From assembly GCF_039536245.1 (NCBI RefSeq), contig NZ_BAAAYN010000042.1, forward strand, positions 1-49,762: a stretch of 49,762 nucleotides of DNA, read 5' to 3'. Position 1 is the first letter of the stretch. The number at the start of each line of letters is the position of its first letter. The translations under genes and the position numbers were made by a program. The notes beneath the pieces are model-generated. The model was given only the letters and a program-made list of their open reading frames with translations, was not told the origin of the DNA and did no database searches. This DNA comes from Cryptosporangium minutisporangium. GTDB taxonomy: Bacteria > Actinomycetota > Actinomycetes > Mycobacteriales > Cryptosporangiaceae. This document shows, piece after piece, positions 4,796-49,762 of the stretch.

Positions 4796-5449
4796 TTAAC
4801 GGTAGCGTTCTGATATTACCTCAAGTAGATCGGTAATCGTCTCCCTGTCGCGCGCCTCATCGATCGTAAGGGCGATGGCGAGCGCGGTTGACATCCAGGC
4901 AAGTTCCTCATTCATATCTACCGAGAGAGCAACCTGGTTGCGGAAGTAGGCCATGTCATAGCCGCTGCGGAGCGCCCAGATAGCCCCGGCAACTAGAGAA
5001 AAATCAACTTTGATAGTGCCACACAAATCCATCGCTCGCGAAATCATCAAATCGCAAAGCGGAAGATCGACGCCTATCGTCTGGGCGCTTGCCTTGAATT
5101 CAGTTAGCAATTCGGATATGAGCGTTATCAGGCCACCCGCGAACGACCGGAGGCCAGCTTTGCGCACTTTGGTGGTCGCATAGGCGCGGTCGAGGCCGCC
5201 GCTCGGCAGTAGGGCCAAAATACACGCCGCGGCAGCCTGCACATCGCCCGGCCGAAAGACAGGTTGGAGCGGTCGCACCTGGCTAGGATGCGTAAGCGTC
5301 GCAACATGTTCTTCGCGGTTTTTTATTAGCACGGCTCGAAGCTTTCCAGCGGAGACCCTAGAGATTAGGCTCGCCGCCGAATTTCTGAACTCAGCACACC
5401 CTACTTCGATGGTGCTCTCTGCTGTCTCGGAGAGTGGCGTCTGCGACAT
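4796..5449 (-). CDS. Phd/YefM-like antitoxin-domain fusion with an unknown helical C-terminal domain
   Basis: A 217-residue protein from the ATG at 5447-5449. Residues about 15-60 (VGCAEFRNSAASLISRVSAG, then VLIKNREEHVATLTHP) match the Phd/YefM antitoxin fold, which binds operator DNA as a dimer through 'aefr..l..ll.rv..Ge...i.r.g.pvA.L'. Typical antitoxins have only 75-90 residues with a short disordered toxin-binding tail. Here the tail is replaced by about 150 residues of predicted helices (for example LISELLTEFKASAQTIGVDL and MNEELAWMSTALAIALTIDEA) that I do not recognise. Alternative starts upstream (ATG at 5524, TTG at 5554) have no better ribosome-binding site, so the exact N-terminus is uncertain. 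The DNA is clearly less GC-rich than its surroundings, suggesting acquisition. No toxin gene follows it. Confidence 0.6.
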   Translation of the reverse strand: MSQTPLSETAESTIEVGCAEFRNSAASLISRVSAGKLRAVLIKNREEHVATLTHPSQVRPLQPVFRPGDVQAAAACILALLPSGGLDRAYATTKVRKAGLRSFAGGLITLISELLTEFKASAQTIGVDLPLCDLMISRAMDLCGTIKVDFSLVAGAIWALRSGYDMAYFRNQVALSVDMNEELAWMSTALAIALTIDEARDRETITDLLEVISERYR

Positions 5450-5600
5450 CCGGACGAGTTTAGCCGCCCGCGCCCCCACGTGTGGTCCGCCGCCGCTTGT
5501 CAACCCCGGATGTGGCTTCTTCATTGCTTGCGTGAAGACCGGACCGCGGCTCAAGCTTCACGGGTAAGCACAGACCCGCACTAGCCGATGGAGCAGCGTC

Positions 5601-5981
5601 ATGCTCGCGAAGAAGACAAGAATTGAGTCGATCAGAAGGCGAAAGAAAATCCTCACTGCCGTCGCTGGCTGCCTGATCGTCGGCGTACTGGCGCAGGTTC
5701 ATTCGATCCTTGCAGGCGCAATTACAACCGCATGTACAATCTTTGGATTGGTGGCCACCCTCCTGAAGAACGAGTGTTGTCGGCGAACTGACGACCAATC
5801 AGCTGATGAATACTCGGCACTGCAGCGCCGGTTAGCTAGGGATGAAATTGACCAGCCACCCTACGGACATAACCCCCACGCATCCTCCTCCCAAGAGGAT
5901 ACGTGGACTACTGATTTGGCCGATCGAGATGTCCGGAAAGCATCGGGTTCCTCGAGCACGAGCGAGCTGCCCGCACCCTAG
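5601..5981 (+). CDS. Small membrane-anchored hypothetical protein
   Basis: A 126-residue protein with a GGAG ribosome-binding site nine bases before ATG. The N-terminus is strongly basic (KKTRIESIRRRKK). A hydrophobic stretch at residues about 17-55 follows, long enough for one or two membrane helices (ILTAVAGCLIVGVLA, then AITTACTIFGLVATLL). After that come a CC pair and a polar, Ser/Asp-rich tail of 70 residues without visible domains. The positive-inside rule puts the N-terminus in the cytoplasm. It is divergent from the Phd-like fusion gene, with only about 150 bases between them, and shares its lower GC content. The two may therefore belong to one acquired module. No family recognised. 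Confidence 0.5.
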   Translation: MLAKKTRIESIRRRKKILTAVAGCLIVGVLAQVHSILAGAITTACTIFGLVATLLKNECCRRTDDQSADEYSALQRRLARDEIDQPPYGHNPHASSSQEDTWTTDLADRDVRKASGSSSTSELPAP

Positions 5982-6449
5982 GAAACACGGGAGGTAACGT
6001 TGCCACATCGGCTATCGCCAAATTAGTGACGCCGTGGCACGGAATGAGAGTGGTCCGACGACGAGCCTCCTTGCTGGGCCGCATCGGGATCTCATCGCTG
6101 GAGCGGATCCGATCGACCTTGATCTGATTGGCCGTCCAGAACGGTGCCGATAAGCGCCTTCCTGCGCATTGCGGCCATCTGATCGCTGTGACCGATGGCC
6201 ATGGGATCTCGATTGTCCGCCAAAAAGCAGATCCTATACATCTCCCTCCTGCAGCCGTTCACCAACCGAAGCGTGACGATGCACTAGTGCACGCCCCACG
6301 CGAATGTCGAACCTGTTCACAGATACATTTCAGAAGCATCTAGCTCACCGCGGCGTGTCATGCCGACCTCGATCGCTTGGGCACCGTTTTAGTGACAGGC
6401 GATGCGACGTGTCATTCCGACCGTCTCAGCGAGAGAGAGGGCTGCAATC
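5982..6449. other. Leader region upstream of the peptidase/paralogue operon
   Basis: About 470 bases, AT-richer than average, with no supported gene. Short frames here lack ribosome-binding sites and homology. The last 100 bases contain the pair of 18-nt direct repeats listed separately. This is the only sizeable non-coding stretch in front of the four-gene operon and so should hold its promoter. Confidence 0.5.
6351..6422 (+). promoter_or_regulatory. Pair of 18-nt direct repeats, candidate operator
   Basis: CGGCGTGTCATGCCGACC at 6351-6368 recurs as CGACGTGTCATTCCGACC at 6405-6422, with 16 of 18 bases identical. The copies start 54 bases apart (about five helical turns), in the same orientation. 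The second copy ends 27 bases before the chosen ATG of the first gene of the operon. The spacing and position fit a regulator-binding pair. No regulator gene sits next to it. Confidence 0.4.
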
Positions 6450-8606
6450 ATGACGTCGGCACTGCGTGAGCAGCTCGGGATCGGCATCGATGCGCAGTCC
6501 TGGGACGTCGATGACTTCCGGCTGTGGGCCAGCAACGCGCGTGGAGTAGTCCTGTACGCACCGACATCCCTGCGGCTCGGACGTAACTCGACCGGAAGGC
6601 CAGCGGCCGCCGTCACGCAGAATCTTCGGTGGCGTGACGGGATCTATCAGTCTCTCGGCGGATCAGCCACACTGGGATTCTTCGACGACGACCTTTCCGA
6701 TGTTGACCGATGCCGCCGCGATCGTGAGTGGCGTCGAGTGGTGTGTGCGGGTGCGAGTGTGGCGGATGCGCCGTCATTCGTGCCGTTGGAGATGCGCGAC
6801 CTGCAACTGACTGCGACCGTGGACCGTCGCTCCGCGCGACTGCTCGCGCCGGAGCTCACCTCGACGCGCACGGCCACCTTCGAGCTGACCGCAGCGGGAG
6901 CGAGCGAATGGGTCGCCGCCGTCACGGACGGGGGCGCCGTCGCCGGAAGCATCCGGATGTCCTATCGCTACCCGCGCCTGCTTAAGCCGGGCACGGTCAC
7001 GATCACCATCCATGGAGCCCAAGTTTTCAACGAGCTGGCCCGGCAGCTGGGCGGGGCCGTCGGCGACCCACCACGCGCCACCGCCGCGCGTATCGCAGAT
7101 GCGTGGTCCAGTCTCTTCACAGCCGGCGCACTTGGCCTATCGATCGACCCTCCCACGACGGGTGAGCGCGCCGACGGATTGATGGATCAGGTGCACGAGG
7201 AACTATTCAGCGCGCTGTTCGTGCCGGTTCGAAGCGACGGGCAACCAGCCGGGAAATATGAACTGCGGTGGCGGCACCCCTCCGATGTCCCAGACACCTC
7301 GCTCAGCGTGTCCGCGGCCGGATGGACCTGGGTGACAGCCGCGCTGGATTGCGAACTGTCCACGCTCCTCCGCACGGTCGATCCGGCCGACGTCCTCACG
7401 ACTTATGCGACCGCGTCGGTGCCGACGCGGGTGGTCGTGGAATCCGCCGCCGAGGTCTCCTCGGTCGAGGTCTCGCTCGACTTCGGCGACGGCCGCCCGC
7501 CCGCAGTGTTCACGTGCGACGGATCCGGCATGACTCGCCAGGTCGCGATTGCCGCGGAACGTCCCGAGCAGGTTACGGCGACTTATCACGCACGCGTTCT
7601 GTTCGCGGATCCAGACAGCTCGGCCGTAGAGGTGGCGGGCGTCGCGGCCTACGCCGCTGGATGCCTATCGGTGGATCTGCGCCCGGGAACGTGGATCCGA
7701 CGGCACACGATCTATCTCTACGCTCAGCGCGACGGCCAGATCCTGACGACCGGCAGCGAGGACGGTAGCGGGGACGTCATCACAGTCACCGCCCTCTACC
7801 AGCCGGGTGGAGCGCCGCCGATCCGGAGAGCAGCACGAATCACGACCGGCGTGCCGCTGACTTTGACCTATCCGGTCCCGCCTGGCTCACCCACGGGCAG
7901 TCTTCATCTGACCGCACTCGGGACCGTCGGCGGAAAACTGATCACGGCGTCTGTGCCCGTGGACGCCACTGCGGAGTCGATCTATCTCCTCGTCACCGGC
8001 GACACGCTCAGGGTTGTGAATCCCGCCGATCTCCCCAGCGAGTCGGACCCGGTGGCTGAGCAGCTCCGCGCCGGCCAATCGCGTCCGCTGGTCACCTGGC
8101 GCTCAGCGCCGAGGGCGGAGGCCGACCGCGAGATTGACGTCATCACCGACGTCGTCTTGATCCCGCAGCCCACGGACGTGTCGTGCTGGGCCGCGGCCCT
8201 CGCGATGGTCGTGAGCGCGCGAGACCGGGCATCCCGATCGGCGGAGGCGGTGGCTCTCCAGGCAGGAATGGACGTGAGCACCGGCTACGGCTGGAGCCAG
8301 ATCCGTGCAGCCGTCAACGCGTGGAACCTGGTTGAGGAGGGCCCGCGGAGCGCAGAGCCCGCGGAATGGGCTCGGATGCTCGAAGCCTGGGGCCCCATCT
8401 GGATCGTCGAGATCGGCGCTCCGTACCACGCCGTGGTCCTCGGCGGGATCCGGGGCGATGGCACGGCGGAAGGAACGCGGGTGACGCTTTACAACCCATG
8501 GCCACCCGGAGTCGGCGTCATCGAGTCGAAGAGCTTCCTGGACTTCGACTCGGACTTCGGGCTGGGCGCCGGCGCAGGCGCCGCAATCGTTCACGCGAGA
8601 AACTGA
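6450..8606 (+). CDS. Modular beta-rich protein with C-terminal C70/AvrRpt2-like cysteine peptidase
   Basis: 718 residues. The start at ATG 6450 has GAGAGG nine bases upstream. No signal peptide. Residues about 20-545 form the region shared with the products at 8626 and 14532. Landmarks are FRLWASNARGVVLYAPTSL near residue 23, VTITIHGAQVFNELARQL, a PKD-like strand set at about 335-385 (VSLDFGDGRPP), GSLHLTALGTVGGKLI, and VAEQLRAGQSRPLV. Residues about 565-718 are a papain-like peptidase of the C70 (AvrRpt2) / C39-like type: VLIPQPTDVSCWAAALAMV with nucleophile Cys579, APYHAVVLGGI with His660, and VTLYNPWPP with Asn682. The whole triad is intact. It is first in a four-gene operon whose third gene is a subtilisin-family peptidase. 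What it cleaves is unknown. Without export signals it should act in the cytoplasm or be delivered by another route. The peptidase call is firm, while the N-terminal region is unassigned. Confidence 0.75.
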   Translation: MTSALREQLGIGIDAQSWDVDDFRLWASNARGVVLYAPTSLRLGRNSTGRPAAAVTQNLRWRDGIYQSLGGSATLGFFDDDLSDVDRCRRDREWRRVVCAGASVADAPSFVPLEMRDLQLTATVDRRSARLLAPELTSTRTATFELTAAGASEWVAAVTDGGAVAGSIRMSYRYPRLLKPGTVTITIHGAQVFNELARQLGGAVGDPPRATAARIADAWSSLFTAGALGLSIDPPTTGERADGLMDQVHEELFSALFVPVRSDGQPAGKYELRWRHPSDVPDTSLSVSAAGWTWVTAALDCELSTLLRTVDPADVLTTYATASVPTRVVVESAAEVSSVEVSLDFGDGRPPAVFTCDGSGMTRQVAIAAERPEQVTATYHARVLFADPDSSAVEVAGVAAYAAGCLSVDLRPGTWIRRHTIYLYAQRDGQILTTGSEDGSGDVITVTALYQPGGAPPIRRAARITTGVPLTLTYPVPPGSPTGSLHLTALGTVGGKLITASVPVDATAESIYLLVTGDTLRVVNPADLPSESDPVAEQLRAGQSRPLVTWRSAPRAEADREIDVITDVVLIPQPTDVSCWAAALAMVVSARDRASRSAEAVALQAGMDVSTGYGWSQIRAAVNAWNLVEEGPRSAEPAEWARMLEAWGPIWIVEIGAPYHAVVLGGIRGDGTAEGTRVTLYNPWPPGVGVIESKSFLDFDSDFGLGAGAGAAIVHARN

Positions 8607-8625
8607 GTCTTCTACACGGGGGTAC

Positions 8626-10647
8626 ATGATGGGGACCTTCCTCACCGAGAACGTTCCGGTCAGCTTGGCCGGGACACTCGGGTCCGCCGGAAACTTCCGG
8701 CTCTTCGCTTGCGACCAGCCAGACGTCGTGCTCTACGTCGCCAAGACACCCACGCTGATGCTCGACCGCGACGGTCAGCCGGCGGTCGCGGTCACGACGT
8801 ACACGACACAGGCAGCCGACGGAAGCGTCAAGGTCACGTCGGGCGCGGCGACGATCGGCGTCAATACCGCCCCGCCGCTCGACCAAGCGGCGATCGACGA
8901 GGCGAAAGCCCGGCTCGGTCAACTGGGGTACGACCCGGCGAAGCTACGGTTCCTACCGCTGACGACCCAGAAGGGAAAAGCGCGCCTCAATTTGGCTACC
9001 GTCGCCGGAGAGCCCGACCGTGCGCACAACGAGCGGGATGTAGGGAATCCTGGTGGCTCCTTGTCCTTCCTCGCCTCGCTGACCGAGGTAGGTGCGCTCG
9101 AGTGGTCGCAAGGCATCAAGCAGCACACACGAATCACCGGCGACATCACCATTCAATTCGACTATCTGCGCCGGGTCCCGGACATGGGCGCGACCGTCCG
9201 CGTGCACGGCCAACGCGTGTTCGACCACTTCTCCGCTGCCCTGCAGGCCAGTTACAACGGCTTCTTCTACGGTGGCAGCGCGAAAATCGAAGCGGCGTGG
9301 GATGAGTTGAGCCGTAACGGTGGCGTCGAGGTGGTGTTCCAGGGCCAGGGACTGCCACCGGAACTGGAGAAGTACCGGCAAGAGATGGTCACCACCTTCA
9401 CCAAGCAGGCGACGGCCATCCTGTTCGACCAGATCTTCGCGCCGATGCCGCAGGTAGCTCCCGCGGAGCCCGACAAGAGTGGTGGCATCTTCGGTGGAGC
9501 CAACTTCGCTCTCAAATGGCAGAAGAAGACCGACGCGATCGACCTGGTTCAGGATATTCAGTTCCGCGGCACTACCTGGCTCACCGAGACGATGGACGTC
9601 AGTCTGGCGGCTCTGCTCGGCGACTTGCCGCAGAGCTGCTTGACCGAAATCCCGGCTCAGCAGGCCTTCGACTCGGTGGTCGTCGTTGACGCCGACCCGA
9701 TGCTGTCCAACGCCGCAGTGTCGATGACCTGGAGTGAAGGCCGCTCGCCCGTCGCGCCGGTCTTCGGATCAGAGGGGGGCCAGCAGCGCTACACCGTGGT
9801 GAGCACCAACCCGAACGCGGTCACCGTCACCTGCAACACCAACATCAACTACAAGCCGAGGTGGCCGGTCGTCGTTCACCGGCAGTCCAGGCCCGTGAGT
9901 GACCGAGGAAACTCTATGGTGATCAAGTCGGCCGCATCCGTCGGACGGCAAGACATCTTCCTGTTCATCCGTGAAGGCAACCGGATCCTCATGCCCCCGG
10001 CAAATATCTCCGGGGACTACCTGGTACTCAACGTCTCCTACGAAGGTCCGCATCTACCGGTGCCGGTGCGCGACTCCGCGCATATCGACGCCGGCGCACC
10101 GGTGGAGTTCGCCTACCCCCTCGATCCCGACGGACGGCCAGGCATCGCCAAGTTCAGCGCCTTCGGCGTCATCGGTGGCCAGCTCAAGCGGGCCGGCGAG
10201 CAAGTAATTCCGCAGACCGACTCGGCGGTCTTCATCCTCGCCACCCGTGGCGGGGACATCCAGCTCGTCACCAGCGAGACCATCCTCGGGGAGAGCGACA
10301 ACCTCGCCGCGGACCTCGTGCGCGGCCAGGGACGTCCGGTCGTGCTCAGCGGCGGCCCAGCCGGCTCGCCGGCCCCGGAGACGACCCGGGCCGGCCGGAA
10401 CGGATCGAATCGCGGCCCGTCGAGCAACGGTCAGGGACGCGTCATCAGCGGCCGGACCATCGGAATCGAGTACGGATCACCGGGACCGGCCCTCTGGCTG
10501 CGGCTCCCGGACGGCACGTCGCAACGTATCGGGCTGCGCAGCTCGGAGAACTGGAGCGCGTTCGAGCACGACAGTCGCGACGTGAAGGTCTACATGGAAC
10601 CTGCGGGCGAGTTCGCCGAACGGATCTACACGCCGCTCACCGTCTGA
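8626..10647 (+). CDS. Beta-rich paralogue of the operon's first gene, no enzymatic domain seen
   Basis: 673 residues, starting 19 bases after the previous stop at tandem ATG codons (8626 or 8629; GGGGGT just upstream). It follows the layout of the non-peptidase part of the first protein: FRLFACDQPDVVLYVAKTP near residue 25, ATVRVHGQRVFDHFSAAL in the middle, GIAKFSAFGVIGGQLK, then AADLVRGQGRPVV. These match segments of the first protein in the same order. Sequence between the blocks is strongly diverged. Where the first protein continues into the cysteine peptidase, this one has a Gly/Ser/Asn-rich linker (about 580-610) and a compact tail with GIEYGSPGPALWLRLPDG. There is no signal peptide, membrane helix or catalytic motif. 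A structural or binding role beside the peptidases is inference. I do not recognise a named family. Confidence 0.6.
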   Translation: MMGTFLTENVPVSLAGTLGSAGNFRLFACDQPDVVLYVAKTPTLMLDRDGQPAVAVTTYTTQAADGSVKVTSGAATIGVNTAPPLDQAAIDEAKARLGQLGYDPAKLRFLPLTTQKGKARLNLATVAGEPDRAHNERDVGNPGGSLSFLASLTEVGALEWSQGIKQHTRITGDITIQFDYLRRVPDMGATVRVHGQRVFDHFSAALQASYNGFFYGGSAKIEAAWDELSRNGGVEVVFQGQGLPPELEKYRQEMVTTFTKQATAILFDQIFAPMPQVAPAEPDKSGGIFGGANFALKWQKKTDAIDLVQDIQFRGTTWLTETMDVSLAALLGDLPQSCLTEIPAQQAFDSVVVVDADPMLSNAAVSMTWSEGRSPVAPVFGSEGGQQRYTVVSTNPNAVTVTCNTNINYKPRWPVVVHRQSRPVSDRGNSMVIKSAASVGRQDIFLFIREGNRILMPPANISGDYLVLNVSYEGPHLPVPVRDSAHIDAGAPVEFAYPLDPDGRPGIAKFSAFGVIGGQLKRAGEQVIPQTDSAVFILATRGGDIQLVTSETILGESDNLAADLVRGQGRPVVLSGGPAGSPAPETTRAGRNGSNRGPSSNGQGRVISGRTIGIEYGSPGPALWLRLPDGTSQRIGLRSSENWSAFEHDSRDVKVYMEPAGEFAERIYTPLTV

Positions 10648-10672
10648 GCACCGCTGCAGCCCCGCCCATCCT

Positions 10673-10701
10673 CCGGTGCGCCGCAGCCCGCGGCGCACCG
10701 G
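10673..10701 (+). terminator. Perfect 12-bp hairpin between the second and third operon genes
   Basis: CCGGTGCGCCGC (10673-10684) is followed by the loop AGCCC and its exact complement GCGGCGCACCGG (10690-10701). The next bases are TCTTATCC, not a clean U-tract. It lies 25 bases after the stop of the 673-residue gene and 27 before the GTG of the subtilisin gene. It could be an attenuator, or a processing or stabilising stem that sets different levels for the two halves of the operon. Confidence 0.5.
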
Positions 10702-10728
10702 TCTTATCCACACGAGAGGGTCGCCCGC

Positions 10729-13700
10729 GTGCCCGCACCGACAACCAAGTCACGGCTGCGCCTGCCGAACGCCAGCAAGGCACTTCTCGCCCGCGCCCGG
10801 CGCACGCTCGAGCCCACGGACGACCCGGCGTCGGAAGCAACACGCGACCGGATGGTCACCGCCTTCGTGGAATTCCTCGAGCCAGTCGACGCCCGCTGGT
10901 CGGCGCGCCTCCACGACCTCGGACTACAGATCATCGGCTACCAGCCGGAGAACAGCTATCTCTGTCGCGGCCCGCTCTCGGCGTTCCACCGCGCGCGTAC
11001 GGACATCACCACGAGCGGGAACCGATCGGCGGTCGCCACAGTCACCGACCTGCTCCCCGAGTTCAAACCGCAGCTGGAGTCACTCGGTGAAGCCGGGAAC
11101 GACGTCGTGATCGTGGTGGCTGCCTCCGCCGGTGAGCGGGCCGTCATCGCCGCCGAAATCGGCGCTGTTCCCGGCGTCGTCCTCCTCGACGGCGCAGGCA
11201 ACGACACCCTTGACCACGCACGCATCCGCTTCCGCGCCCGCATCCAGTCCGACAGCCAACGGGCGTTGCTGCAACACCCGCAGGTCCTCGCCGTCGAGGA
11301 CTTCGTCGCGCCGGTACCTGAAGATGAACAGGCCGGACTGATCGTCGCGGGTCTCTACGACGCTGCCGGGCACCCCGCAGGCTCCTATCTTCGGTGGTTG
11401 CGCGACCTGGACCTCGACGGACGCGGAGCCCTCATCGGCATCGTCGACAGTGGGGTCGACGTCAGCCATCCGGCGTTCACCGGCCGCGTCAGAGACCTAA
11501 CCGGCGGCCGCAAAGACTGGCACGCCACGATGGTCGCCGGACACGCCGCGGGGGACTATCGCGAATCCACAGACGATGAGGGCCTCATCTACGGCCTGGG
11601 CATCGCACCCGCCGCGCAGGTGCTCTCACAGTGGAAGAGCCTCTCCGCCGAGGAACTCTGCCGGCAAACCGTGGGCGAAGCGGCGGGGCTCTTCGCCGTG
11701 CAGAACAACTCCTGGGGCAAGCAACCGGCTGATCCGATGAGCTACGGATCCGACGAAGCGCTCTACGACGCACTCGTCCGGAACGCCGATCCGGCCGCGA
11801 CAACGCCAGCGCCCCTCGTCGTCTGCTTCAGCGCCGGGAACTCAGGCGCCGCCGGTCTCACCCGGCCGAAGGCCGCGAAGAACGTCCTCGTCACCGGCAA
11901 CTCCGAGAGCTTCCGCCCGAACGCAGGAGGCATCCAGAGCGACGACATCAGCGAGGTCTACACCGGTCTGCACGGCTCGAGCCACGGCAACTGCGGCGAC
12001 GGACGAGTACGGCCCCATGTCGTCGCGCCCGGCGAATGGACCGCGTCGGCCAACTACGACTGCCATGCCGGCGAACCCGAGTACGTCAATCCGCTGATCA
12101 CCTGGGGCGGCGGATCCTCCGGCGCCAGTCCTAAGACAGCCGGCGCCTGCGCGCTGCTCGCGCAATGGTGGCTCCGTACACACCCCGACCGGCCGCCCTC
12201 TCCAGCGCTGCTCCGAGCGCTGATCGTCAACGGCGCCGAGCCCATGCGCGGCGCCGGATCTCCGCCCAACAGCCAGCAGGGATGGGGACGGCTCAATCTC
12301 GCGAACATCCTCGATCCGGCGGTGGCTCGCGTCATCGCCGACGAAGGCGACCGCATGACGCTGGCCGGGCAAGAACGCCGCTGGACGCTGCGGGTGGCCG
12401 ATCCACGCCGGCCGGTCAAGGTCACCCTTGCCTGGACCGATCCCCCCGGGGCTGTCGGCACCGGCGCCTCGGCGGAGCTCTCCCCGATCGTCAATCGGCT
12501 TGCCCTCCGCGTCACCACGAACGGGCGTCGCTATCAAGGACTGCCCGATCGATTCCGCGAGGGCGTCACGCTCGACGACGCGGCACTGGCAACCGCGGCG
12601 AGCAAACTCCTGCCGGAGGGCGCGGACAACCTGCAGAACATCGTCCTCGCGCCGGGTACCGTCGGCGGAGAGCTCACCGTCACGGTGAACGCTCTCCGTG
12701 TGGTCGCTGACTGCCGGACCGGCCGATACATCGAGCCTGGCCAGGATTTCGCGCTCGTGATCACCAACGCGGTGGTAGACAGTGCAGCCACGCCCACGGT
12801 CGTCGCGGTGACCGCAGACCCCGAGTCGTTCCGCCCCGCCGACCCGAGCGCCGTGCGTCACTGGTCGGCCGACTCCGCCGACGGTGACCGAGTTCTCGCC
12901 GAGATTTCGGCCGGCGGCAGGGATGCCGTGTCCCTGCCTCCTGACCGGCTACCCGATGACGCAGCGTGGTGGGAGACGGAGACGCCCGCCGCGACCGTCG
13001 GCGCGGATGCCGAACGCGACGGGCTGGCCCCCGACGCGCTCATCGCAACGGCGACGGCGGTCACCGCTGGTGCGCTGGACACCGCCGGGCACCGTATCGC
13101 GATCGGTTCGACATACGCCGCGTTTGCCCCCGATCAGGCCGCTACCGGTTTGGGAGCAGCGATCTCCTCCCTCCTCAGTGCCGTCCGCTCACCCCCATGC
13201 GACGACGTCGAGCCGCCGTCACCTGCCGCGCATGCGTGCGCGATCCTGCTCGTCGGCTCCGGTACACGAGCACAGGTCGCGGACCTCCACGCCCTCCGGA
13301 CGCTCGCAGCAGCCGCGACGCTCACCATCGTGTCTGACGACGCCAGCGTCCTGGCATTTCTCGCCCAACGGATCGGTCCCGGCGCCTCAGCGAAGTATCG
13401 ATTGGCCGCCGGGCACAACCAATTGCCCGACGTCCTCAGCGAAGCGATGACGGACTCTGGCGGCCTTCAACGAATCCTCGTCTCGCAGGAGACCACCGCG
13501 ACCGGCACACGCTTCTCCTTCGGGGTCGTGCCCGCCGATCGCAGCATCGTCGTCCGTGTCGAGGGCGAACTCGCCGAGCGATCCGGCACCCTGGTGCTGC
13601 GGGCCGCCGACGGCACGGAGATCACGTGGCCCTTCGACGCGGCCCCTCAGGATGGCGCTGATATCAGGGTCGCCGTGCGCACGGGCGCGGTGGAGTTCGC

Positions 13701-14535
13701 ACACCTGGCAGCCAGCGGTCTACCCGGGCAGTGGGAACTTCGCGCGGAGGGCTGGGAGCAGCCTGTCCGCGCTCAGGCATGGGCGGTGGGTGGGACACGC
13801 CTGGCGGCGGGCCACACGCCGACGGCGTCCGGCGCGAGAGCAGAGACCGCCGACCGCACCATGCTTCGCGTCGCCGGACCGCCCGGACACCTCCTTCGGC
13901 AGCTCACCGTAGAGCCGCCCCGCCTGACTGGTACCGACACTGGCCCGCGCAGCGAGTACCCACGCGCCACCGTCATCCGCGCCGTCCCTGGACGACTGGA
14001 CAACAGCGGGCAGACGATTCCCGAAGCGCAGCGAACCGCCGCGCCTGTTCCGGCGCTCGGTCAGGTACTCCCCCTGCCCGGCGGACCCACACCGGTCGTC
14101 GGTGATCTGACGATCCACGCCGTCGGCACCGACTCCGGCGGCCATGACTTCGATCGCACCGTTCGAATCGATGTGCACCGCGTCCAGCCCTGGTCCGATT
14201 GGCGCGCGCAGGTCGCCGCCGACCGGAAGCTGCGTTACACCCGCGGCCGCATACTGGCGCTCGAGTCCGGACGAGACGGTGTCGATCGAGTCACCGTCGC
14301 CCGCGGCGGCCGAAGGCGCGTCGTCCAGGTCGTCCCCGAGCCGCTCCGCCAACAGCTGGCCGCCGCCGGTACAGCCCACCTCGCGGGCCTGGACCTGGTG
14401 CTGGGCGTGACCGGAAACGAGCTTCACGCCCTCTACCGGCCCCTCTACCCCGACCTCGGTCACCCGGCCGCACCAGTCTTCGAGGAGACACACACCCTGG
14501 CCGAGGTACCGACTGGAGCGCACCCCACGTCATGA
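10729..14535 (+). CDS. Subtilisin-family (S8) serine peptidase, very large, without signal peptide
   Basis: 1268 residues, GTG start with GAGAGGG eight bases upstream. Residues about 35-210 look like propeptide-type repeats (ending QHPQVLAVEDF). The S8 catalytic domain follows with Asp240 in IGIVDSGVD, His265 in DWHATMVAGH, oxyanion Asn371 in FSAGNSGAAG and nucleophile Ser464 in GGGSSGASPKTAG. All four positions are kept, so it should be active. After the catalytic domain comes a KP-43-like beta-sandwich (VKVTLAWTDPPG, then DNLQNIVLAPG and QDFALVITNAVV). About 600 further residues are Ala/Asp-rich and unassigned. The N-terminus is polar and basic with no Sec or Tat signal, unusual for a subtilisin. 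It lies between two members of the paralogous beta-rich family and overlaps the next gene by four bases, so they are probably translated together. Candidate substrates are the co-encoded proteins or an incoming trigger protein. Confidence 0.85.
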   Translation: MPAPTTKSRLRLPNASKALLARARRTLEPTDDPASEATRDRMVTAFVEFLEPVDARWSARLHDLGLQIIGYQPENSYLCRGPLSAFHRARTDITTSGNRSAVATVTDLLPEFKPQLESLGEAGNDVVIVVAASAGERAVIAAEIGAVPGVVLLDGAGNDTLDHARIRFRARIQSDSQRALLQHPQVLAVEDFVAPVPEDEQAGLIVAGLYDAAGHPAGSYLRWLRDLDLDGRGALIGIVDSGVDVSHPAFTGRVRDLTGGRKDWHATMVAGHAAGDYRESTDDEGLIYGLGIAPAAQVLSQWKSLSAEELCRQTVGEAAGLFAVQNNSWGKQPADPMSYGSDEALYDALVRNADPAATTPAPLVVCFSAGNSGAAGLTRPKAAKNVLVTGNSESFRPNAGGIQSDDISEVYTGLHGSSHGNCGDGRVRPHVVAPGEWTASANYDCHAGEPEYVNPLITWGGGSSGASPKTAGACALLAQWWLRTHPDRPPSPALLRALIVNGAEPMRGAGSPPNSQQGWGRLNLANILDPAVARVIADEGDRMTLAGQERRWTLRVADPRRPVKVTLAWTDPPGAVGTGASAELSPIVNRLALRVTTNGRRYQGLPDRFREGVTLDDAALATAASKLLPEGADNLQNIVLAPGTVGGELTVTVNALRVVADCRTGRYIEPGQDFALVITNAVVDSAATPTVVAVTADPESFRPADPSAVRHWSADSADGDRVLAEISAGGRDAVSLPPDRLPDDAAWWETETPAATVGADAERDGLAPDALIATATAVTAGALDTAGHRIAIGSTYAAFAPDQAATGLGAAISSLLSAVRSPPCDDVEPPSPAAHACAILLVGSGTRAQVADLHALRTLAAAATLTIVSDDASVLAFLAQRIGPGASAKYRLAAGHNQLPDVLSEAMTDSGGLQRILVSQETTATGTRFSFGVVPADRSIVVRVEGELAERSGTLVLRAADGTEITWPFDAAPQDGADIRVAVRTGAVEFAHLAASGLPGQWELRAEGWEQPVRAQAWAVGGTRLAAGHTPTASGARAETADRTMLRVAGPPGHLLRQLTVEPPRLTGTDTGPRSEYPRATVIRAVPGRLDNSGQTIPEAQRTAAPVPALGQVLPLPGGPTPVVGDLTIHAVGTDSGGHDFDRTVRIDVHRVQPWSDWRAQVAADRKLRYTRGRILALESGRDGVDRVTVARGGRRRVVQVVPEPLRQQLAAAGTAHLAGLDLVLGVTGNELHALYRPLYPDLGHPAAPVFEETHTLAEVPTGAHPTS

Positions 14536-15962
14536 ACGACAGCCCCGTCCTCGCAAGGCCCCTCCGGACGCTGACGGCCAGTCGCGTCACCACCGACTCA
14601 CTCGGATTCACGGCGGCCTGGCTCACCCGCCCGGCCTGGGACATCGGGCCGGTGCCCGCTCAGCCTCTGCCGCCGAGCCCCCCGTCCGACGACGAACCAC
14701 TCCTGAACGGGAACTTCCGCATCCAACCGTTCCCGAAAGAACGAATGGTCGTGGTCGGGTCGACCCGGCTCAGCCTCCGGACGTTCTCCCTCACGGTGCA
14801 GAAAGTCCTCAGCGCCGACGGGTCGATCCGGGTCTGCGGCGCCACGGCCGTCTTCGTCGTCAGCGCCTACGCCGAGGAGACCCTCGATGAGTTGGCCCGG
14901 AATCAGCAAAGCTGGCTCACCGATCTGTCCCGTCGGACCGCTATCGACAACAGCTGGACCTTCGTCCCCGAGACCCGGGCGAGCTTGACGATCACGCTCG
15001 AGCTACCGCCTGGCGTGGCCGTCGGGGAATCGTCGATCGCCGCCTCCGCGATAGCCGGTACCGCCATCGTCATCGTAGAACTGACCGAGGTAGCCGCACT
15101 GACGTGGATGAACGCGCTCCAGCAGGGTGCAGGTTCGACCCTGCCCGGCGTGTTTCGCGTCAGCGCCACCACGCCGCGTTTCACCACTCAGGGCTTTGGT
15201 CTGGAGCCACGCCGCCTGGACACTCCCGTCGGGGTTTTGCTCGCTGCACGAGGACCAGCCGATATCCGCGTCATCGATCCCCAGCAAACGGTGAGCGGCC
15301 GCGTGGTGGTGATGGGCAGCGCCCTCGTCGGCACGACAACCCTGACGATCAGACCGAACCAAGGCGGTAGCCCAGTCTCAGCGGCGCTCGGACCCGGCGG
15401 CGGCGACCTCGTACTCTCGGTCACCAGCGCCACCCCGCAGTCGGTCACCATGGGATGGACGGCCGAGGTCGGATTCACCCCGCCCGGATGGCCGGTCGTA
15501 CCGACGACGGGCTCACTGGACGCTGCCCGTGGATGGAACACGATCCTCAAACCCGAGGCATGGTGCGTGAGTTACCTACTCTTTCCCGTCGCTGTCGACG
15601 GTGTCGGTCGGCCCCAGGCCGCAAACGCGCAGGAGATCAGAGTGCAGGGAATCCTGTCCTACTCCGCGCCCTATATCAGTGGCGGCCACCTCACGAGCGC
15701 GTTCAACCTGCCCATTGCCACCCCGCTCAACGTCCTTCTGCCCCGCTACCCCGACCAACCGTTCGGACAGCCGGTCCTCAACGTCATCGCGACACGCAAC
15801 GGCTTCTCCGGCATGGCCTCCAAGACCCTCGGCCCTGATGACGTCGTCCTCGCGATCCTCATTCATCCGAACGGACAACCCGAAGTCCGAAGCTCGACCG
15901 ACCCGTGGCCAGAGAACGCGGCAACCGGACACCTCCTCGGCGCGCTCGGACAGTTGTCCTGA
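14532..15962 (+). CDS. Third, shorter member of the beta-rich paralogue set
   Basis: 476 residues. The ATG overlaps the stop of the peptidase gene (ATGA), which fixes the start and indicates translational coupling. The order of recognisable blocks follows the two upstream paralogues: FRIQPFPKERMVVVGSTRL near residue 60, a segment AALTWMNALQQGAG aligned with SEWVAAV and ALEWSQG of the others, a strand set ending LNVIATRNGFSGM, and a last block VVLAILIHPNGQPEVRSS. It ends there, without a linker or catalytic extension, and is the most diverged of the three. No signal peptide, transmembrane helix or known enzyme motif. It closes the operon, and the next genes are remnants. Function unknown. Confidence 0.6.
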   Translation: MNDSPVLARPLRTLTASRVTTDSLGFTAAWLTRPAWDIGPVPAQPLPPSPPSDDEPLLNGNFRIQPFPKERMVVVGSTRLSLRTFSLTVQKVLSADGSIRVCGATAVFVVSAYAEETLDELARNQQSWLTDLSRRTAIDNSWTFVPETRASLTITLELPPGVAVGESSIAASAIAGTAIVIVELTEVAALTWMNALQQGAGSTLPGVFRVSATTPRFTTQGFGLEPRRLDTPVGVLLAARGPADIRVIDPQQTVSGRVVVMGSALVGTTTLTIRPNQGGSPVSAALGPGGGDLVLSVTSATPQSVTMGWTAEVGFTPPGWPVVPTTGSLDAARGWNTILKPEAWCVSYLLFPVAVDGVGRPQAANAQEIRVQGILSYSAPYISGGHLTSAFNLPIATPLNVLLPRYPDQPFGQPVLNVIATRNGFSGMASKTLGPDDVVLAILIHPNGQPEVRSSTDPWPENAATGHLLGALGQLS

Positions 15963-16334: not shown

Positions 16335-16580
16335 CTACTGCCGCCACCACCAGCACTCGACACTCCTGGCCGGACACCTCCTTACGAAGGGAGCCGGCTT
16401 CGCCGACGACGAGGCCGACGTACCGGCCAGGGCAACTTCGCGGCTAGCGATCTTGAGCCTGCGGTTCAGGCACGACTCGGAGATCCTGAAGCTGCGCGCG
16501 ACTTCGGCGATCGAGCGGTCGCCCTGACGGGCGACGGCGATGACATCAGCCCGGAACTCCTTCGGGAACGGCTTGGGCAT
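16335..16580 (-). pseudogene. IS3-family transposase OrfA remnant
   Basis: The first 45 residues are the helix-turn-helix of an IS3-family OrfA: MPKPFPKEFRADVIAVARQG, then IAEVARSFRISESCLNRRLKIA. The ATG is preceded by GGGAGGA about nine bases upstream. After KIASRE the frame loses similarity. Traces that look like the coiled-coil part (GEAGSLRKEVSG) appear in another frame, so the gene has at least one frameshift and lacks the leucine-zipper end. OrfB is missing. It is a non-functional scar, probably of the same broad IS3 group as the OrfB at the right end of the window. Confidence 0.75.
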
Positions 16581-49360: not shown

Positions 49361-49762
49361 TCAGTTGACTGCGGCGGCTGGACGGTAGGCGTGTTCGTAT
49401 TCGACGGGTGGGACTTCGCCGAGTTCGCCGTGTAAGCGCCGGTGGTTGTACCAGTCGATGTACTCGGCGACGGCGATCTCGAGGTCGTCGTGGCCTGTCC
49501 AGGGGCCTTTGTTGCGGATCAGTTCGCCCTTGAACAGCGAGTTGAACGCCTCGGCTAGGGCGTTGTCATACGAGTCGCCGGTGGAGCCGACCGACGCGAC
49601 GGCGCCGGCTTCGGCCAGCCGCTGGGTGTATCGAACGGCGACATATTGGACTCCCTTATCGCTGTGGTGGATCAGATCGGTGACGTCCTGGCCCTCGCGA
49701 CGCCGGGTCCAGAACCCCATCTCCAGGGCATCGAGGGCCAGATCGGTGCGCAGGGAGGTCGA
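49361..49762 (-). mobile_element. IS3-family transposase OrfB, C-terminal part, running off the window
   Basis: The frame is open from the right window edge to TGA at 49361-49363. It contains the end of the DDE integrase core: TDLALDALEMGFWTRRREG, the second catalytic Asp in LIHHSDKGVQYVAVRYTQRL, GSTGDSYDNALAEAFNSLFK with the catalytic Glu following in the family pattern (E of FKGELI region or AEAFN), and WYNHRRLHGELGEVPP. This part is intact, so the element may be active. The sequence just left of it (about 49316-49360, CTCCACCAAACCCGGCGC on the minus strand) resembles IS3-group terminal ends. The other end lies outside the window. Confidence 0.88.

Follow-up and report, generated by a model that had tools for sequence, protein, structure and literature searches.

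What does a bacterium do with two unlike peptidases encoded together with three related proteins? The question is raised by a four-gene unit of Cryptosporangium minutisporangium (assembly GCF_039536245.1, contig NZ_BAAAYN010000042.1, forward strand), located in the 49,762-nt stretch that was analysed as a whole and is called the window below. The unit occupies positions 6402-15962 on one strand, in the order P1, P2, S8, P4. The answer that we favour, at roughly even confidence, is a horizontally spread modular conflict-effector unit in which a constant scaffold family carries lytic enzymes. Support comes from the paralogy of P1, P2 and P4, from the active-site residues of the peptidases, from gene fusions, from a gene order kept in a distant bacterium and from enzymes that differ between loci.

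P1 (6402..8606, + strand) is a scaffold paralogue with a C-terminal C70 (AvrRpt2-like, papain-fold) peptidase. It is composed of 734 residues when read from 6402 and of 718 residues from the ATG at 6450. The latter, given as the gene start in an initial annotation of this DNA, is the probable one and has the better-placed Shine-Dalgarno (SD)-like stretch by eye, GAGAGAGAGGG, but the upstream start is possible and the first codon is uncertain. P2 (8626..10647, +; 673 residues) is a free-standing paralogue with no convincing family match, and P4 (14532..15962, +; 476 residues) is a short one that lacks the central domain. Between them lies the S8 gene (10729..14535, +), with a GTG start and an SD-like GAGAGGG (by eye). 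An ATGA is shared by its stop and the start of P4, in agreement with the overlap already noted for the last two genes.

P1 and P2 align by BLASTP over 579 columns (E 2e-36, 25% identity), and P4 aligns weakly with both (E 3e-7 with P1, 2e-7 with P2). A profile of five P1/P2-type rows (A1) matched a profile of two P4 rows (A2) with a probability of 98.8 and an E-value of 8.3e-17 over 404 columns; the score was 133.4, as compared with 25.9 for the best of 16 reversed or column-shuffled controls. With the profile comparison far above controls, P1, P2 and P4 are real paralogues, and P4 is a shortened one. About 140 residues of P1 and P2, containing the VHG block, have no counterpart in P4 and appear as a gap in the profile alignment. 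The initial annotation had described three diverged paralogues sharing ordered blocks, co-encoded with two unlike proteases, and had suggested comparing them profile to profile. The paralogy holds for all three, with significant similarity in that comparison, and so does the co-encoding; the VTITIHGAQVF / ATVRVHGQRVF block is common to P1 and P2 only. The three proteins give the impression of being beta-rich. The ratio of non-synonymous to synonymous substitutions (dN/dS) is below 1 for all four genes (0.09-0.50), which suggests purifying selection on each, with dS saturated.

The two peptidases look intact, as first proposed. The P1 tail (domain at residues 587-701, 8160..8504, +) matches PF12385 Peptidase_C70 with 61.6 bits (curated cut-off 19, E 9.8e-17). 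Its Cys595 (VSCWAA), His676 (PYHAVV) and Asn698, numbered from the 6402 start, are presumably the catalytic residues, by motif. We take the third catalytic residue of AvrRpt2 to be an aspartate; that of P1 appears to be an asparagine. The cysteine and histidine are kept in a related locus, L009, from a verrucomicrobial metagenome-assembled genome (MAG). The S8 (subtilase) protein, of 1268 residues, has a KP-43-like catalytic domain (residues 231-520, 11419..12288, +) and a long C-terminal part. It matches PF00082 Peptidase_S8 with 96.2 bits (cut-off 21.8, E 2.9e-27), and residues D240, H265, N371 and S464 are invariant in three out of three homologues. The nearest PDB sequence to the domain is KP-43 (1wmd, E 1.8e-24). 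The N-terminal region may be prodomain-like.

Family libraries say little about the scaffold proteins. P2 has no Pfam match and P4 a single one, below cut-off. For P1, P2 and P4, searches of NCBIfam, PADLOC and PHROGs were without convincing matches, and the PDB sequences yielded nothing for P1 or the A1 profile. Among the four unit proteins, Pfam and NCBIfam recognised no caspase, NTPase, EAD or trafficking domain. The core scaffold family thus appears to be undescribed in the libraries searched.

Export signals were looked for in 24 proteins (4 from the window and 20 related) by a plain Kyte-Doolittle hydropathy scan, which is not a dedicated signal predictor. The four proteins of the unit are free of hydrophobic stretches at the N-terminus (within the first 60 residues, the highest mean over 15 residues is 0.96), in line with the absence of signal peptides noted initially. 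The customary cut-off for 19-residue windows is 1.6. Within the window, S8 (1.72 at residue 138) and P4 (1.78 at residue 169) exceed it, with peaks for which such a scan does not distinguish a buried strand or helix from a membrane stretch; P1 and P2 stay below. Altogether six of the 24 proteins pass this value, the others being the S8 (1.77) and P4-type (1.71) proteins of L009, an M4-like protein of locus L039 (1.88) and the B protein of locus L013 (2.00). Only the last has its stretch near the N-terminus. Judged from this plain scan, export of the window unit through a classical signal is improbable.

How widely is the unit found? Genes of the relatives' genomes were called with a simple script, and plasmid annotations were taken as deposited. 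With P2 as a query, no relative was found in the other 100 of 101 related genomes, three congeners included. In 396 genomes of the window's phylum, the A1 profile matched the window genome alone; in 288 genomes of the phylum of the MAG, the MAG was likewise the sole match. A contig scan with fixed peptides, which reaches close relatives only, retrieved one locus, L009. It contains the same four genes in the same order, again with C70 on the first gene, and its S8 protein bears a C-terminal Amidase_2 domain. Identities with the window are 47% for P1, 69% for P2, 45% for S8 and 39% for P4, P2 being the best conserved of the four. Within P1, the C70 part is 75% identical (116/154 aligned residues) and the remainder 40% (224/563). 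Caution is required as to the binning of the MAG. Thus, of the idea that the four genes stay together in relatives, the conserved order in a distant bacterium stands, but P2 has no relative in close genomes.

A third carrier of this first-clade form, in condensed shape, is a plasmid of the alphaproteobacterium Indioceanicola profundi (L010). It has one P1/P2-type gene, 43% identical to P2 and without C70, then a gene fusing S8, two PG_binding_1 domains and a P4-like protein, and a third gene combining TIGR02594 with PG_binding_1. As judged by eye from translations, an integrase-like and a resolvase-like gene border L009, and transposase-like genes border L010; in the window, a transposase fragment below cut-off follows the unit. 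These mobile-element flanks, together with the gap between host phyla, argue for horizontal spread of this rare and sporadic unit, which the window bacterium has probably acquired from elsewhere.

More distant relatives form a second clade (profile A3). Weak matches were obtained in 6 of the 394 genomes of the window's class, its own genome included, and one match was found on a Deinococcus plasmid. One of the six (G414, locus L016; 62 residues, 1.3e-4) was later dropped, the gene being called on the opposite strand. A1 and A3 are related by profile comparison (E 1.9e-14), and A3 used as a hidden Markov model (HMM) finds P2 in the window genome (6.3e-15). A3 loci contain a scaffold gene, a long second gene, B, and one enzyme. 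The B gene is present in L011, L013, L014 and L015 and was not called intact in L012. The enzyme combines a caspase with PG_binding_1 in L011 and L015, and a papain C1 domain with PG_binding_1 in L013. L012 and L014, from the same genus, have a four-repeat hemopexin protein (Pfam scan of the L012 copy). The C-terminal part of that copy (L012:8046-8666) shows an E-x8-D-x5-T spacing, which we take to resemble that of T4-type lysozymes; neither Pfam nor the PDB sequences supported a lysozyme. A relationship of the B proteins to P1/P2 or P4 was undetectable (E 0.33 and 0.11). They are weakly linked to A8, a profile of further proteins of third-clade loci (E 0.0026, score 36.9 against a control maximum of 20.5), itself not significantly related to A7, the scaffold profile of that clade (E 0.1), or to A1 (E 0.079). 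In phage records, P2 and the Deinococcus scaffold had no relatives, nor did A1 or A3 in viral contigs examined by a pattern scan.

Searching with A3 led to the third clade, A7 (L033, L039 and L040). A7 matches A3 with an E-value of 1.2e-22 and A1 with 5.2e-14, and remote comparisons between A1, A3 and A7 score 120-188, against control maxima of 22-29. As an HMM, A7 matches the A3 members G182, G143 and G127, four of 256 genomes of the class being matched. The PDB search with A7 gave a chance-level match only (0.018). Each third-clade locus has several scaffold paralogues. L039 also has a Tle1-like phospholipase (9e-73) and an M4-like gene nearby, with one enoyl-CoA hydratase-like gene (by eye) in between. 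L040 has an M4-like gene and a patatin (2e-14), the latter encoded on the other strand at some 5 kb from the first A7-type gene. The M4 metallopeptidase identity of both genes falls below the Pfam cut-off and was not retained. Near L033 are a CHAT-TPR gene and a LuxR-type ATPase; polyketide synthase-like genes (by eye) are seen about 11 kb from its scaffold cluster (L035:4917-15688).

Plasmids carry relatives of an L033 protein in four records (E 9e-27, 2e-13, 2e-13 and 7e-7), of which three were inspected, the fourth being a near-twin of the Paracoccus one. On the Paracoccus plasmid (L042:3049-23884), an EAD1 gene and an ATP-binding gene are followed by a run of closely spaced, co-oriented genes, in which scaffold-type genes, several recognised by eye, occur together with phospholipase D (PLD)-like, tyrosinase and trypsin-like genes. 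The trypsin-like and tyrosinase set is reminiscent of the animal phenoloxidase cascade. On the Azospirillum plasmid (L043:12227-16905), an Hbl/Nhe-family gene, whose product has a strong hydrophobic stretch (2.62), lies two genes upstream of a scaffold gene, with transposases on both sides. A common companion resembling a squalene-cyclase-type alpha-toroid (by eye) is seen at L042:19325-21421, L043:17852-18937 and L040:14927-16321, and is possibly a constant part of third-clade loci.

What do these enzymes have in common? In the first two clades, the enzyme bears a peptidoglycan-binding or amidase module in 5 of the 7 locus types (window, L009, L010, L011, L012/L014, L013 and L015), the exceptions being the window and L012/L014. 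PG_binding_1 is scarce: the eight genomes of the window's class contain 9, 5, 5, 7, 5, 8, 6 and 7 matches, and the MAG genome one. Inside the scaffold locus are found 3 of 3 matches on plasmid W01, 1 of 1 on plasmid W02, 1 of 5 in G143 and 1 of 7 in G127. Seven of the 11 carriers have none in the locus (G000, which is the window genome, G182, G385, G836 and the third-clade genomes G328, G1170 and G1186). A crude estimate gives a probability of about 2e-10 that the four positive loci arose by chance, assuming one gene per kb and three neighbours on each side; since it is post hoc, omits the seven negatives and counts two homologous caspase loci as independent, it indicates only that chance alone is unlikely.

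Some loci also lie near genes of conflict systems. The caspase-type scaffold locus L015 adjoins a stretch (L015:12005-16981) that encodes a SIR2-domain protein, a protein of 190 residues and an SMC-like LmuB (PADLOC 1.6e-39), a neighbourhood that looks Lamassu-like from its gene content. CHAT-TPR genes are found within about 5 kb at L012 and L014, which represent one genus, and at L033. By association with the LmuB-like and SIR2-domain genes beside L015, with CHAT-TPR genes near three loci and with EAD1 near one, a conflict function, immune or competitive, is the likeliest for the unit.

How could such a unit work? Since C70 is fused to P1, and S8 overlaps P4 and is fused to its like in a relative, the four proteins point to one complex with a constant scaffold and exchangeable enzymes. 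The idea of a scaffold for enzymes, already present in the initial annotation, gains from the C70-P1 fusion in both the window and the MAG, from the S8-P4-like fusion of Indioceanicola and from the lytic neighbours of the distant relatives. The P1/P2/P4 family would be the constant carrier that holds the lytic enzymes, with P2 as the free core subunit. The four proteins would lack classical export signals and be put together within the producing cell. S8, by analogy with its family, would be silenced by its prodomain, by the scaffold or by both, and would ripen upon cell damage, infection or lysis. Active S8, and C70 perhaps released by S8, would then attack proteins, possibly at or near the envelope, where the relatives bear peptidoglycan-binding or -cutting modules. 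The outcome would be that the carrier cell dies in time to stop the spread of a parasite, or that a neighbour exposed by its lysis dies; we place self-directed action slightly ahead of action on neighbours. A bolder proposal, which we advance only tentatively, is that these proteins are the first known representatives of a large, as yet undescribed superfamily of multi-paralogue scaffolds. Such scaffolds would gather exchangeable killing enzymes (proteases, wall hydrolases, phospholipases, pore-formers and tyrosinase) into one complex in Actinobacteria, Deinococcus, Alphaproteobacteria and a Verrucomicrobia MAG, and the operon with trypsin and tyrosinase would correspond, in bacteria, to the protease-phenoloxidase cascade of animals.

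Several observations weigh against a conflict-effector unit. Its first-clade form is known from three carriers only, and the window's own enzymes have no peptidoglycan module. With PADLOC-DB 2.0.0, the four unit proteins gave a single match, that of S8 to the model 'subtilase' (1.6e-14), and a Pfam scan of ten flanking genes (window to 20.3 kb) recognised no sensor, immunity or defence gene. At E <= 0.001, the window genome gives no match to the A7 HMM, and the third clade, which is the most distant, gives the most varied enzyme list and may have another function. At the Pararhizobium locus, a row of eight genes lacks annotation; several look like scaffold genes by eye, no lytic enzyme is recognised, and a cytochrome P450, a cyclase and other metabolic or regulatory genes surround them, which speaks against a general lytic link. 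Finally, in a further scan of 25 third-clade plasmid genes, the Paracoccus tyrosinase showed a twin-arginine-like leader by eye, so that not all such enzymes act inside the cell.

Could the unit instead process a toxin? The C70 tail would be the toxin, P1 its carrier and S8 the maturation protease, with P2 and P4 as chaperones or immunity-like carriers. P1 is conserved most strongly in its C70 tail, as would be expected of an active cargo, and the account of polymorphic toxins in PMC3482391 includes, in the part drawn on here, subtilisin and caspase among the processing proteases. We nevertheless consider this unlikely: the Indioceanicola locus has S8 but a scaffold without C70, and the S8 proteins of relatives bear Amidase_2 or PG_binding_1, which makes them more effector-like than helper-like. 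Moreover, neither a trafficking domain in the four proteins nor an immunity gene among the ten flanking genes was recognised, the latter with Pfam, which would miss novel immunity families.

Digestive or housekeeping proteolysis, by a scaffolded protease complex that is secreted or released by lysis and serves feeding or wall turnover, seems to us distinctly improbable. KP-43-like S8 enzymes are mostly extracellular digestive proteases, and wall-binding modules would suit turnover. However, the simple hydropathy scan found an N-terminal signal-like stretch in none of the four window proteins and, among the 20 related ones, in L013 B only. The sporadic spread across phyla and on plasmids, and effector-like neighbours such as the Tle1-like phospholipase, the patatin and the Hbl/Nhe-family protein, also fit poorly with such a role. 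A cargo or accessory of a contractile injection system, the delivery reading of the initial annotation, is very improbable: proteases, Tle1-like lipases and hemopexin-type repeats do occur among injected effectors and the window genome has one phage-sheath match (G000:C24:152123-152620), perhaps from a contractile system, but the sheath family PF04984 was found in only this one of 11 carrier genomes or records, two of which are plasmid records without their chromosomes, and on contig C24 when the unit is on C42, and no tail gene was seen among the annotated or Pfam-scanned genes beside the loci, part of the genes having been scanned.

We then compared the conflict-effector unit with known systems. 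Parts of PMC7159879 describe peptidase-rich conflict systems with constant components, including EAD1-linked lysozyme- and papain-like peptidoglycan enzymes. In those parts, the EAD / EACC1-caspase and NucA-peptidase systems resemble the unit in that peptidase and peptidoglycan-directed effectors are exchanged around a constant component, and the EAD1 gene of the distant Paracoccus locus adds to the likeness. In contrast, the constant part in the window is a family of 476-734 residues, with no NTPase, caspase or EAD recognised. The constant component of those systems has a single transmembrane helix; by hydropathy, P1 and P2 stay below 1.6 and P4 reaches 1.78 in one 19-residue window. The scaffold family is not described in the passages of this paper drawn on here, and tyrosinase, phospholipase D and patatin are nowhere in its main text. 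Polymorphic toxins, as presented in part of PMC3482391, share a C-terminal enzymatic tail on a larger carrier, nearby proteases and varied effectors on related carriers, but the window unit has neither a recognised trafficking domain nor a recognised immunity gene, and its carrier exists in several paralogues. The P1 tail passes the Pfam cut-off for the AvrRpt2 family (PF12385) and has its Cys/His pair; it differs by sitting on a 734-residue carrier in a different kind of bacterium, AvrRpt2 itself being a type III-secreted protein with a plant target. Similarly, the window S8 has the catalytic domain and active-site residues of the KP-43 type (1wmd), but it is 1268 residues long, has no N-terminal signal-like stretch and is coupled or fused to a scaffold paralogue. 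Its mode of action may be like that of a swappable-effector conflict system, without the unit being a member of any system compared.

Word searches in the open-access literature, judged by titles and abstract starts, returned no paper on this gene combination and no entry combining four or more of the locus-enzyme words; in PMC8195603 the six words sought have zero occurrences. Together with the family searches, this agrees with the initial annotation, which could name no matching system. If the favoured reading is true, very different lytic enzymes are brought together in one type of system by a constant component that has so far gone undescribed and is spread over four bacterial phyla, of which one is represented by a MAG and one is inferred; the unit may then be an interchangeable microbial weapon or self-destruct kit. 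The scaffold profiles would then be a handle for finding new effectors by neighbourhood. In the more modest case, C70 and S8 peptidases are carried by a protein family that had no annotation. With only four genes, the unit lends itself to a direct test in a laboratory actinomycete.

Some features of the window lie outside the unit. Just downstream, on the minus strand (16335..16580), is the N-terminal, helix-turn-helix fragment of a transposase, with matches to HTH_Tnp_ISL3 (7.4e-4) and HTH_Tnp_1 (7.8e-4) that are both under the Pfam cut-offs. Just upstream, two genes at 4796-5554 and 5601-5981 have a lowered third-position GC content (0.62 and 0.59) and no Pfam match, and may be the edge of imported DNA. 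At the far end of the window, on the minus strand (49361-49762), a fragment resembles, by eye, an IS3-type transposase.

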